NCBI GenBank assembly: GCA_028875655.1
Contig: JAPPCX010000054.1
Span: 62,001-126,000 of the forward strand
Reading direction: 5' to 3'
Length of the DNA: 64,000 nucleotides
From: Chloroflexota bacterium
Lineage (GTDB): Bacteria; Chloroflexota; Dehalococcoidia; Lucifugimonadales; UBA3495
The position numbers were made by a program, and so were the translations under genes. A model generated the notes under the pieces. It worked only from the letters and a program-made list of their open reading frames with translations, had not been told where the DNA came from and ran no database searches. Positions 20,120 through 63,891 of this stretch are shown here, one piece after another. Position 1 is the first letter of the stretch. The number at the start of each line of letters is the position of its first letter.

Positions 20120-20265
20120 CCCTCATCTTTCGTCATACCGCTTGCTGACGTGCCGCAGGGCGACACTACGCGCGGGACGCCGGAATTAGCACCTGATCCC
20201 ACCGGGTGAGCGGGATTGGTTGCCAGGCTTCACAGGGCCGTTCCCTCCGCCTGTCTGGATAAGGG
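20120..20265 (-). ncRNA. SAM-I riboswitch (S-box) aptamer
   Basis: The minus strand reads CTTATCCAGACAGGCGGAGG, then GAACGGCCCTGTGAAGCC, TGGCAACC, and later GGTGCTAATTCC. These are the conserved blocks of the S-box: P1/P2 kink-turn, GGAGGGA, GGCCC-GAAGCC-GGCAACC, and GGTGC-AAT-CC. P1 closes as CCCTTATC with GATGAGGG. The P4 region is enlarged, so the aptamer is about 146 nt. It senses S-adenosylmethionine and controls mtnA and the genes behind it, down to metK. Confidence 0.95.
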
Positions 20266-60452: not shown

Positions 60453-61424
60453 TCACCGCGCCCCGGCCAGGCCCTCGTCATCGTCGCCCGGCAGGTCAAA
60501 CTGCCCCAGGATGTCGGCCAGCGTGCCCTCAATGCTCGGCGGCAGTTCGATGGGTTCCTCAAAGGCCTGGAAATTGTGCTCGCTCCGCACCCGGTCGATG
60601 TAACGCCGGGCTTCGTCGTTGCGTTGCGCCACCCGGTCCAGTGATTCCTGGAGGCGTTGCGCTTCCTCTTCGTACCGGGGCCGCAGGTCCGACAGGTCGA
60701 TGTCCAGCGAGTACAACGCGCGCAACCGCCGCATGATGTCGTAAAAGGCCCGGTGGTCGGTGGTAATACCCAGTTGGCCGCCGCTGCCGCCGCTGAATGG
60801 GAACATCGGGGCCATGGCACCCACCCGCACCATCTCGACGTCGGGATGCTGGTAGTGGGCCATGCTCACCATGGCCATTCCGACCGTCGGCCCCTGCCGC
60901 TGCTGAGACCCGTAGCTGGAAAACAACATCCCGTGCTGTCGCAGCTCATCGGCCATTGACGCCTTGCTGTACACGCACGAGATCCGCCGCTCCTGCTCGG
61001 GAGGGGCGGGGCCGTTGTAGCCTTCCACCGCCGCGATCTTGGGATTGCCCAGGGCGGCCACCGCTTCAAAGAACGCCTGCCCATACAGGTCGATCCGATA
61101 CCACGGCTCGATGCCCAGGAATATTACCAGCCCGTTGCCGGCATCCCAGAACCTGTTGTCCCATTGCATCGGGCGGCTCGGCAAGCCGTCGCTAAAGGCG
61201 GCGCGGGGACGATAGAGGTCGTGGGTGCCGGCCACCTGGAACGGGAAGCACATCCTCGAAATCTCATCGGTCATCTGTCCGATGCTGCGGGCTGACAGCT
61301 TGTCGATCAACCAGCGCGGCATCCCGCTGGATATGTTGCCGCCGTCCGACCACTGACGACGCCAGCCGGCTATGACTACCCGGGTCTCGGGTACCTCGTC
61401 CAACGCAATCAGTGGTTCGGCCAT
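60453..61424 (-). CDS. PAC2-family protein
   Basis: A 323-residue protein related to proteasome assembly chaperone 2, also common in archaea and in Actinobacteria and Chloroflexota. The markers are VIAGWRRQWSDGGNISSGMP at the N-terminus, LVIFLGIEPWYRIDLYGQ, FFEAVAALGNPKIAAVEGYN (helix and loop of the fold), and GMAMVSMAHYQHPDVEM. A C-terminal helical part (residues ~240-290) is charged. The function in bacteria is not known. Confidence 0.8.
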   Translation of the reverse strand: MAEPLIALDEVPETRVVIAGWRRQWSDGGNISSGMPRWLIDKLSARSIGQMTDEISRMCFPFQVAGTHDLYRPRAAFSDGLPSRPMQWDNRFWDAGNGLVIFLGIEPWYRIDLYGQAFFEAVAALGNPKIAAVEGYNGPAPPEQERRISCVYSKASMADELRQHGMLFSSYGSQQRQGPTVGMAMVSMAHYQHPDVEMVRVGAMAPMFPFSGGSGGQLGITTDHRAFYDIMRRLRALYSLDIDLSDLRPRYEEEAQRLQESLDRVAQRNDEARRYIDRVRSEHNFQAFEEPIELPPSIEGTLADILGQFDLPGDDDEGLAGAR

Positions 61425-61453: not shown

Positions 61454-62233
61454 CTATATCAGCTGGGCCGGCGTGAAGATGCCCTCCATGTCTTCCTCAG
61501 TGGCGGGAGTCTGCGCCGGCTGGTTCAGGTTGGTATCCATAAACCAATAGACCTGCTTCAGGTGGTGCGTGCTGTGGCTCAGGATGATGTTGAGCAGTTC
61601 CAGCACGGTGACCTCCCCGCCGTAGTGGGCCGGCACCACACGGTCGAATCCCTCGGCGTCCCCGCTGTTCAGGAACGCGACGATCCCGTCGGCAACGCCG
61701 TTGGCATAGTCGGCAATATCCTGCGGCTTCACCAGGTGCGCCAGGCTCTCTCGGCAGGCCCGCATGTCATCCGAGCTCATGGAGCCGCGGGTGCGGCTGG
61801 TGTACGCCAGCTCCGGGAACGACACGATGTGCACCAGGGTGTCGCGGAGCATCTCGGGCCGCCACTGCACCGGCTGTGCGAGTTGCTCTTCGGAAAGCTC
61901 CAGCGTGGCGCGGACGGCGGCTTCCAGGATCACACGGTACTTGTCCGCCAGCCAGGCGGTTTTGCCCGACAGGTCGATGGGAGCATCTTCCAGGCCCAGC
62001 GCCGGAATGAGCTTCTTCGGGTAGTATCCGATGATGACCTCGGTGCCGTCGATGATGGTCACGGGCGCGGACAGCACGCCCCGGGATTTCAGGTCCTCGC
62101 GGGCCGCGTCGTCGGTCAGCAGGTCGTGGTGTTCATACTGAACACCGTTGGACGCCAGGAATTCCTCCAGCGTCCGGCAGCTGAATCAACCAGGGTTGGT
62201 GTAAACGTGGACTTCTCGTACTGCGGTTGTCAT
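61454..62233 (-). CDS. Glutaredoxin-DinB fusion, candidate selenoprotein (in-frame TGA at codon 16)
   Basis: From the ATG at 62233 (behind AGGAGAGGAAA) the frame reads MTTAVREVHVYTNPG, TGA (62188-62186), then FSCRTLEEFLASNGVQYEHH. The TGA is exactly where glutaredoxins have the first Cys of CxxC; Cys19 is kept, so the motif would be U-F-S-C. The cis-Pro loop (LSAPVTIIDG) and the Gly-containing VIIGYYP complete a thioredoxin fold up to about residue 80. A DinB-like four-helix domain follows (residues ~92-240), with TLVHIVSFPE and the metal-site-like SHSTHHLKQVYW. Total 259 codons including Sec. Without Sec the only product would be the N-terminally truncated part from a GTG at 62077. A nonsense mutation or sequencing error is the alternative. 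Confidence 0.75.
62150..62188 (-). promoter_or_regulatory. Candidate bacterial SECIS stem-loop after the TGA
   Basis: The mRNA after the UGA has ten bases (UUCAGCUGCC), then GGACGC, UGG, AGG-AAUU-CCU, G, GCGUCC. GGACGC pairs with GCGUCC, and AGG with CCU around an AAUU loop, with a UGG bulge holding a U and Gs. The 10-base spacer and total size fit bacterial SECIS elements, which lie within ~40 bases of the UGA. The match is structural, by eye. Confidence 0.5.
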
Positions 62234-62260
62234 TTTCCTCTCCTACTTAATGTCCTACCC

Positions 62261-62352: not shown

Positions 62353-63891
62353 CTATTCGCCGGCGCGGAACCAGTCTGATTTGCGCTCAGCGATCATGAT
62401 CGTCGTGCAGTTGGTGTTGGCCCGTATGCAGTCCGGCATCACCGACGCGTCGGCCACGTGCAGATTTTCCAGCCCGTACACCTTGCAGTGCTGGTCAACC
62501 ACGGCCATCGGGTCGTCGGGCGTGCCGATCTTGCAGGTGCCCGAGATGTGCTGCGAGGTGCTGACGGTGCGCTTCATCCAGTCGTTCAGCGCCTCGTCGC
62601 TCTCCAGGTCCGCCGGCAGCGGGTCCAGCAACTCGTCGGCCACGTCCCGATAGTGTTCGCTGTCCAGCAGGTTCACACAGAGCCGGACGGCCTCGCGCAT
62701 CCGCGACAGGTCGAACTCCTCCTGGAAGTAGTTGTAATTCAGCGCAACCTGCTCGTGCGGGTCGGTGCTGGCCAGCTGCAGGTGGCCGGAACCCACCGCC
62801 AGCTCCAGGATGCAGGTGAACCGGATGCCCTCGGCTTCCAGCGGGTCGCCGGCGATGGGCGACGAGAACGACGACTGCATGATCTGGATGTCGTTGCGCA
62901 GGTGGCTGCCTGTCGCCGTGTAGCGCAGGCAAACCTGGGTGCGCGGCACCGACGGGTCCAGCGGGAAGTCGTCCCTGACCTTCACCGGCACGCGGATATT
63001 GGGATGGTCGCGCAGGTTCCGGCCCACGCCGGGCAGCTCATGCACCACCGGAATGCCCATCTCCCGCAGGTGGTCGGCCGGGCCCACGCCGGACAGCAGC
63101 AGCAGTTGCGGCGACCCTATCGCCCCCGAACTGAGGATGATGTCCTCGCCCTCCACGGTGAACACTTCACCGCCGCTTTCCACCTCGACGCCTACGGCCT
63201 TCTTGCCCTCGAAAACGATCCGACGGCAGGTGACGTTGGCGCGGATGGTCAGGTTCAGCCGGTGCCGCGCTTCCCGCAGGTACGTGATGGACGTACTCAT
63301 GCGTACCCCGTTGGGGTTGTTCATGGGGATGGGGCCAACGCCGCCCGAATCCGGGTGGTTCATGTCGGGGTCGTCGGGGTATCCGGCGGCGCGGCAGGCG
63401 TTCCAGAACGCCACCTGGGCCGGCAGCCAGTCCTCCCGGCGGTGGCGGCGCACCGGAATCGGGCCGGTGTTGCCGTGGAAATCGTCCGTGATGTCGGTGT
63501 CGGTTTCCAGCTTGCGGAAGTACGGCAGGCACTCGGTGAAGCCCCACTCGTCATTTCCCAGCGCCGCCCAGGCGTCGTAATCCTCGGGCACGCCACGCAG
63601 CAGCACCTGCCCGTTGATGGCCGACGAACCGCCCACGACCCGGCCGCGCGGCACGGGCATGGGATTGGCCTGCCCGGGGTTGTTCGCCCAGAACGTCCAG
63701 TTGTGCGGCGCGTTGACCGCCGAGGCCGTCTGGTCGTAGCCGTACTTCAGGTCGTCGGGGTACAGCTCGAAGTCCGGGTAGTCCGGTCCGGCCTCCAGCA
63801 CCAGCACTGAACGGTCCGGATCCTCGGTGAGGCGGGCTGCCATCGTGCAGCCGGCCGATCCGGCGCCGATGATGATCACGTCATACTTCAT
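62353..63891 (-). CDS. GMC-family FAD-dependent oxidoreductase
   Basis: The 512-residue flavoprotein has the FAD-binding start YDVIIIGAGSAGCTMAARLT, the GMC signature RGRVVGGSSAINGQVLLRG, LSSGAIGSPQLLLLSGVGP, and the C-terminal catalytic His region VSTSQHISGTCKIG, with NTNCTTIMIAE near the end. It resembles choline dehydrogenase and alcohol dehydrogenases (AlkJ, PEG-DH). The physiological alcohol is unknown. Nothing recognisable lies between its start and the window end (63892-64000). Confidence 0.92.
   Translation of the reverse strand: MKYDVIIIGAGSAGCTMAARLTEDPDRSVLVLEAGPDYPDFELYPDDLKYGYDQTASAVNAPHNWTFWANNPGQANPMPVPRGRVVGGSSAINGQVLLRGVPEDYDAWAALGNDEWGFTECLPYFRKLETDTDITDDFHGNTGPIPVRRHRREDWLPAQVAFWNACRAAGYPDDPDMNHPDSGGVGPIPMNNPNGVRMSTSITYLREARHRLNLTIRANVTCRRIVFEGKKAVGVEVESGGEVFTVEGEDIILSSGAIGSPQLLLLSGVGPADHLREMGIPVVHELPGVGRNLRDHPNIRVPVKVRDDFPLDPSVPRTQVCLRYTATGSHLRNDIQIMQSSFSSPIAGDPLEAEGIRFTCILELAVGSGHLQLASTDPHEQVALNYNYFQEEFDLSRMREAVRLCVNLLDSEHYRDVADELLDPLPADLESDEALNDWMKRTVSTSQHISGTCKIGTPDDPMAVVDQHCKVYGLENLHVADASVMPDCIRANTNCTTIMIAERKSDWFRAGE

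Follow-up and report, generated by a model that had tools for sequence, protein, structure and literature searches.

Selenocysteine (Sec) is already known in glutaredoxins and in glutaredoxin-like proteins. A catalogue of prokaryotic selenoproteins published in 2026, with 119 families and subfamilies, includes glutaredoxin (Grx) with a UxxC motif as well as UXX-star Grx-like forms, one of which is fused to another domain (PMC13188914). Sec-Grx is given there as experimentally verified, and binding of metals or of unknown substrates has been proposed for the UXX-star proteins (PMC13188914). Among DinB/S-transferase-like proteins, the bacillithiol S-transferase BstA has three histidines (H67, H160 and H164) that are thought to bind a metal, and EDTA abolishes activity in all eight Bacillus transferases (PMC5815605).

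In the window, by which we mean the whole 64-kb stretch of DNA analysed here, a Grx domain and a DinB domain are encoded by a single minus-strand gene that is interrupted by one TGA. Judging from its sequence and that of its relatives, this gene very probably encodes a selenoprotein, with UGA codon 16 recoded as Sec and a UxxC Grx joined to a presumably metal-binding DinB/S-transferase-like domain. The features of the locus are as follows.

60453..61424, minus strand: PAC2-family protein, on the same strand as the fusion gene and 29 nt downstream of it.
61454..62233, minus strand: putative Sec-containing Grx-DinB fusion gene, 259 residues plus stop (translation, Pfam, homologues).
61529..61969, minus strand: DinB/S-transferase-like four-helix domain, about residues 89-235 (Pfam, predicted structure).
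61562..61564, minus strand: His224, third ligand of the presumed metal triad (HxxxH), invariant.
61574..61576, minus strand: His220, second ligand of the presumed triad, invariant.
61829..61831, minus strand: His135, first ligand of the presumed triad, invariant.
61994..62212, minus strand: Grx domain, about residues 8-80, NrdH/YruB/cGrx1-like, with cis-Pro57 (Pfam, NCBIfam, structure match).
62128..62146, minus strand: second conserved hairpin, GGUGUUCA/UGAACACC, within the coding sequence (folding, dip in synonymous change, covariation).
62150..62175, minus strand: bSECIS-like hairpin, with apical loop GGAAU (62165..62161) lying 20 nt downstream of the UGA (folding, covariation, model constraints of PMC13188914).
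62177..62179, minus strand: Cys19, putative resolving Cys of UxxC, invariant (alignments of close and diverse rows).
62186..62188, minus strand: TGA, predicted Sec codon, residue 16 and first UxxC position (TGA in homologues, Cys in distant ones).
62237..62244, minus strand: ribosome binding site AGGAGAGG.
62353..63891, minus strand: GMC-family FAD oxidoreductase, on the same strand as the fusion gene and near it in many homologous loci.

With TGA read as Sec, the minus-strand translation of 62233..61454 is MTTAVREVHVYTNPG-U-FSCRTLEEFL...FTPAQLI*, which corresponds to a protein beginning and ending MTTAVREVHVYTNPGUFSCRTLEEFL...FTPAQLI. The plus-strand reading of 61454..62233 gave no sensible protein and was rejected. 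The original prediction had put an in-frame TGA in the place of the first active-site Cys of a Grx domain, behind a good ribosome binding site and ahead of a frame remaining open for 243 codons into DinB, without stating the strand. The minus-strand translation and the Pfam matches bear this out: the TGA is the only one in frame, it replaces the first active-site Cys (PG-U-FSC), 243 codons follow it, and AGGAGAGG lies 3 bases upstream of the ATG. Purine-rich sites also precede the start in most homologues. Under the standard code, all that is left is a 207-residue DinB ORF with a GTG start at 62077, and the Sec half would be lost from annotation because standard-code calling would show this DinB protein only.

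The N-terminal domain matches Pfam Glutaredoxin (PF00462; residues 8-65, 38.4 bits for a cut-off of 22.9) and the C-terminal one DinB_2 (PF12867; residues 112-228, 33.4 bits for a cut-off of 24.8). The fusion was modelled with AlphaFold2 (pLDDT 90.3, pTM 0.83). In the predicted structure the Grx half superposes on cGrx1 (PDB 7c10), its best match in both sequence and structure, with a Z score of 14.0 and an rmsd of 0.9 Å over 75 residues at 40% identity; among NCBIfam models it is closest by sequence to those of YruB/NrdH type, under their cut-offs. This half has the profile match, the Trx fold, the C/UxxC motif and the cis-Pro of a glutaredoxin and, as had been proposed, its second Cys, its cis-Pro loop and its fold are intact. 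The DinB half has the four-helix fold and the profile match of its superfamily, with Z scores of up to 15.8 to DinB/YfiT proteins, 12.8 to mycothiol S-transferase (8f5v) and 12.5 to maleylpyruvate isomerase (2nsf), all for the predicted structure. Foldseek matches to whole GSTs covered both domains but at about 16 Å rmsd, and were rejected as a global fit. None of the three residues His135, His220 and His224 varies in the alignments of 31 close and 13 diverse rows, in which every subfamily and the aligned Cys proteins are represented. By analogy with BstA, we presume that they form a triad for a divalent metal.

Taken as a whole, a selenoprotein with an inferred thiol-transfer or thiol-reduction function is likely to be the best explanation of this locus. 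The function itself can be assigned only tentatively: from its resemblance to S-transferases, the protein may be a two-module enzyme of thiol S-transfer and reduction. Sec-dependent redox chemistry coupled to thiol transfer had been suggested from the outset, and is plausible in that it fits the conserved His triad. In the mechanism that we propose, SelB and tRNA-Sec would decode UGA codon 16 as Sec, aided by the hairpin located just downstream. The DinB domain would probably bind a divalent metal via His135, His220 and His224, and this metal site would activate a thiol, either of low molecular weight or on a protein, which would be passed to a substrate. The Sec-Grx domain would then reduce the resulting mixed disulfide or selenenyl-sulfide, with Cys19 acting as resolving residue, and the Sec/Cys pair would be recharged by thioredoxin reductase or by a small thiol. 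The metal, the substrate, the thiol and the electron donor are here those that we infer. Thioredoxin reductase would more likely supply the electrons, as the Grx half resembles NrdH/YruB and the source genome contains a thioredoxin reductase and lacks the glutathione and bacillithiol synthesis enzymes that were searched for: BshC was not found, and glutamate-cysteine ligase, searched as the GCS2 type, was absent. For MshC, the only match in this genome was under the cut-off. The same genome encodes a second cysteinyl-tRNA-synthetase-like protein (L141:1402-3723), whose long C-terminal extension looks like a glycosyltransferase; this protein might be a non-canonical CysRS or an enzyme of thiol synthesis.

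A serious rival to thiol transfer, although one of rather low probability, is that the selenoprotein handles metals, metalloids or organometals, or reduces electrophiles or peroxides, with Sec16 and Cys19 binding or reducing the toxic agent and DinB as a structural or metal-delivery partner. The role envisaged for UXX-star Grx-like selenoproteins (PMC13188914) points in this direction, and the neighbouring FAD-dependent GMC oxidoreductase may produce peroxide or aldehydes. However, there is no metal-resistance gene among the annotated neighbours, and catalytic S-transferases have a matching His triad, in BstA (PMC5815605) as in the structure matches. Of 56 loci, 31 have a GMC oxidoreductase nearby, frequently on the same strand, and 18 have a PAC2 protein; since the setting differs among subfamilies, the neighbourhood is a weak functional hint. 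The sole Rfam match in the window at gathering score is a SAM riboswitch (S box leader, RF00162) at 20120-20265 on the minus strand (70.2 bits).

The reading as a thiol S-transfer and reduction enzyme can be extended, rather doubtfully, to a selenium-dependent counterpart of glutathione S-transferase, in which metal-bound DinB would add a thiol to organic electrophiles and Sec-Grx would remove it reductively, as part of the breakdown of resistant dissolved organic matter by SAR202-type Chloroflexota. If this were true, a GST-like Sec enzyme, expanded in several subfamilies of these bacteria, would serve that breakdown.

The case for Sec at codon 16 rests in large part on comparison. Across 84,980 species genomes, 42 relatives were found, nearly all titled as Chloroflexota, Dehalococcoidia or SAR202 MAGs; the one titled Mesorhizobium may be a mis-binned contig. 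Among the close homologues (61-95% identity), TGA is present in all 41 that cover the site, and Cys in none. When 250 genomes of the order were searched with a profile, yielding fusions that overlap the set of 42 relatives, 44 close fusions came to light, with TGA in 43 and the 44th truncated before the site. Profile searches also uncovered three more distant Grx-DinB subfamilies, all with TGA: two in the same 250 genomes, with 18 divergent fusions (GUFTCGRTKEFL and GUATCARTKEFLS), and a fourth subfamily (GUSSCAMTK), with two members in other Chloroflexota, in a phylum-wide search. In six distant proteobacterial Grx-DinB proteins, which are plasmid-borne, the same column contains Cys (GCSSC). 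TGA in Chloroflexota versus Cys in Proteobacteria at one aligned column is, at the sequence level, a classic Sec/Cys pairing. In an unrooted tree of 21 proteins, few of them Cys sequences, the Cys forms cluster with subfamily four, and the three SAR202-type subfamilies form a cluster of their own. No relative was found in the viral contigs searched.

Some additional observations were made on these gene families. One divergent Grx-DinB copy (L103, G595:C309) has an additional in-frame TAG within its DinB part, perhaps as a decaying paralogue or through an assembly error. Glutaredoxins of one domain that share this UGA and hairpin are common in the order (GUGPCHMVK, GUHFCQRTEEF and GULQCKRTKEF; L118-L133, for example L118:1274-1336 and L127:1490-1552), and one genome has a Cys form of such a protein (GCGPCEMVK, L121).

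We then considered the RNA downstream of the TGA. Hairpin stability in this region is above that of shuffled sequences (z about -2.2). In the main clade, 91.4% of pairs are kept in a structure consisting of a 9-pair stem and the second hairpin, and two-sided changes number 23, compared with 11.8 in shuffles (0 of 500). A separate set of 35 other genes, from other subfamilies and single-domain Sec-Grx, has a hairpin xxGAAAG...CTTTCxx at the same place, 90% kept, with 24 two-sided changes against 9.8 (again 0 of 500). A-U to G-C and C-G to U-A switches are found there in 11 sequences each, these being counts of related sequences and not of separate events. The published bSECIS model requires a loop of 3-9 nt with G at its first two positions, a spacing of 16-37 nt and an MFE of at most -7.5 (PMC13188914). 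The hairpin of the fusion gene agrees with it (loop GGAAU, 20 nt from the UGA, -18.4 kcal/mol), as do those of 31 of 42 main-clade genes, compared with 64 of 252 (25%) arbitrary codon positions in the same genes. It is therefore covariation that carries the weight of the hairpin, given that a quarter of background positions also pass. RNAalifold alone preferred a different pairing for the main clade. The second hairpin, GGUGUUCA/UGAACACC, just past the SECIS-like one, is preserved in 94% of main-clade cells, and synonymous change dips for a second time at this position.

Synonymous differences are lowest at about codons 12-22 and 25-38, around the UGA. The pN/pS ratio is 0.29 in codons 17-53, between the TGA and the first alternative start, and 0.35 in DinB, and we read the protein as being under purifying selection across the TGA. 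These values bear on the view that the TGA is a real stop and that DinB is made alone from an internal start, as the 207-residue standard-code ORF would allow. We hold this to be very improbable: codons 17-53, which would be in neither product, show the same degree of constraint as the remaining codons, neither Cys19 nor the Grx fold varies, and the distant relatives have a Cys codon within one continuous ORF. That the gene is a pseudogene, its frame broken under the standard code by a lone TGA that arose by nonsense mutation or sequencing error, has a negligible probability in view of the retention of this TGA in all 41 close homologues from separate assemblies and in every divergent Chloroflexota fusion found, and of the purifying selection downstream of it. 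The original prediction had likewise judged a chance nonsense mutation unlikely; a misread TGC or TGT is excluded because the TGA recurs in dozens of separate assemblies.

Decoding of UGA as Sec would require a dedicated machinery, for which the original prediction had proposed a search. The source assembly, a draft of 3.45 Mb in 123 contigs (97% complete, 4.4% estimated contamination), contains all four components: a tRNA-Sec with UCA anticodon (66.4 bits) and, over their family cut-offs, SelB (361.5 bits), SelA (552.9 bits) and SelD (377.7 bits). SelD has an in-frame TGA of its own, in the active-site motif HCAGU, so the genome uses Sec beyond the fusion gene. Single-contig genomes of the same genus (G584-G586) have the same gene with TGA, plus selA. 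In the order, selA is present in 61 of the 67 genomes having a match, the remaining six all being less than 90% complete; this co-occurrence discriminates weakly because selA is widespread there (202 of 250 genomes). Genome-wide reassignment of TGA to a sense amino acid would equally leave the frame open, but it is hardly credible, since TGA is the normal stop of an ispF-like gene directly before cysS in this genome and terminates several homologous fusions, the aligned residue is Cys and the full Sec system is present. Other candidates were set aside: a second tRNA-Sec-like match (54.9 bits) was rejected for want of confirmation by ARAGORN, the in-frame TGA of the MshC-like match proved to be the ispF-like stop before cysS, and the further TGA-bridged frames obtained by scanning the 64-kb window were all unconvincing.

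That a Sec-containing Grx-DinB fusion had not been described was also part of the original prediction, and it stands. The catalogue of 119 families lists no DinB fusion and does not contain the word 'DinB' (PMC13188914), no NCBIfam model matches the fusion over its cut-off, and nothing relevant on selenoproteins with DinB or in SAR202 was found in open-licence papers. On sequence grounds, the Grx-DinB fusion thus appears to be a new, well-supported and uncatalogued selenoprotein family of SAR202-type Chloroflexota. The bacterial selenoproteome would gain a family with several subfamilies from abundant, hard-to-grow ocean bacteria, and selenium would be tied to the DinB/S-transferase-like superfamily by the joining of two redox/thiol modules known separately.

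Each of the closest systems resembles the fusion in part. Sec-Grx (PF00462) and cGrx1 (7c10) share with it the Grx fold and a CxxC motif with Sec or Cys first and Cys second, but Sec-Grx is catalogued without a second domain, whereas the present Grx is DinB-fused and NrdH/YruB-like (NCBIfam scores under cut-off). The UXX-star proteins and the HUGP/GUXX-star fusion (NF041212, NF045501) also have Sec in a Grx-like domain, in the latter case in a fused form, but there the partner is not DinB, and the NCBIfam scores of the present protein fall far short of the cut-offs (NF041212, 33.2 versus 66; NF041211, 23.7 versus 100; NF045501, 19.8 versus 325). DinB/S-transferase-like proteins share the four-helix bundle (Z 12.5-15.8) at only 8-16% identity, and the present DinB sits behind a Grx. 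With BstA the likeness extends to the three conserved His, including HxxxH, H135/H220/H224 corresponding to H67/H160/H164 (PMC5815605); in contrast to the setting of bacillithiol S-transferases, the source genome has no BshC match, and one to MshC under cut-off only. The proteobacterial Cys-type Grx-DinB proteins of Roseomonas, Variovorax, Caballeronia and Rhizobium plasmids, annotated only as 'DinB family' or 'glutaredoxin domain-containing' proteins, share the domain order and the CxxC and His triad columns but have Cys in place of the predicted Sec, at about 23% identity.
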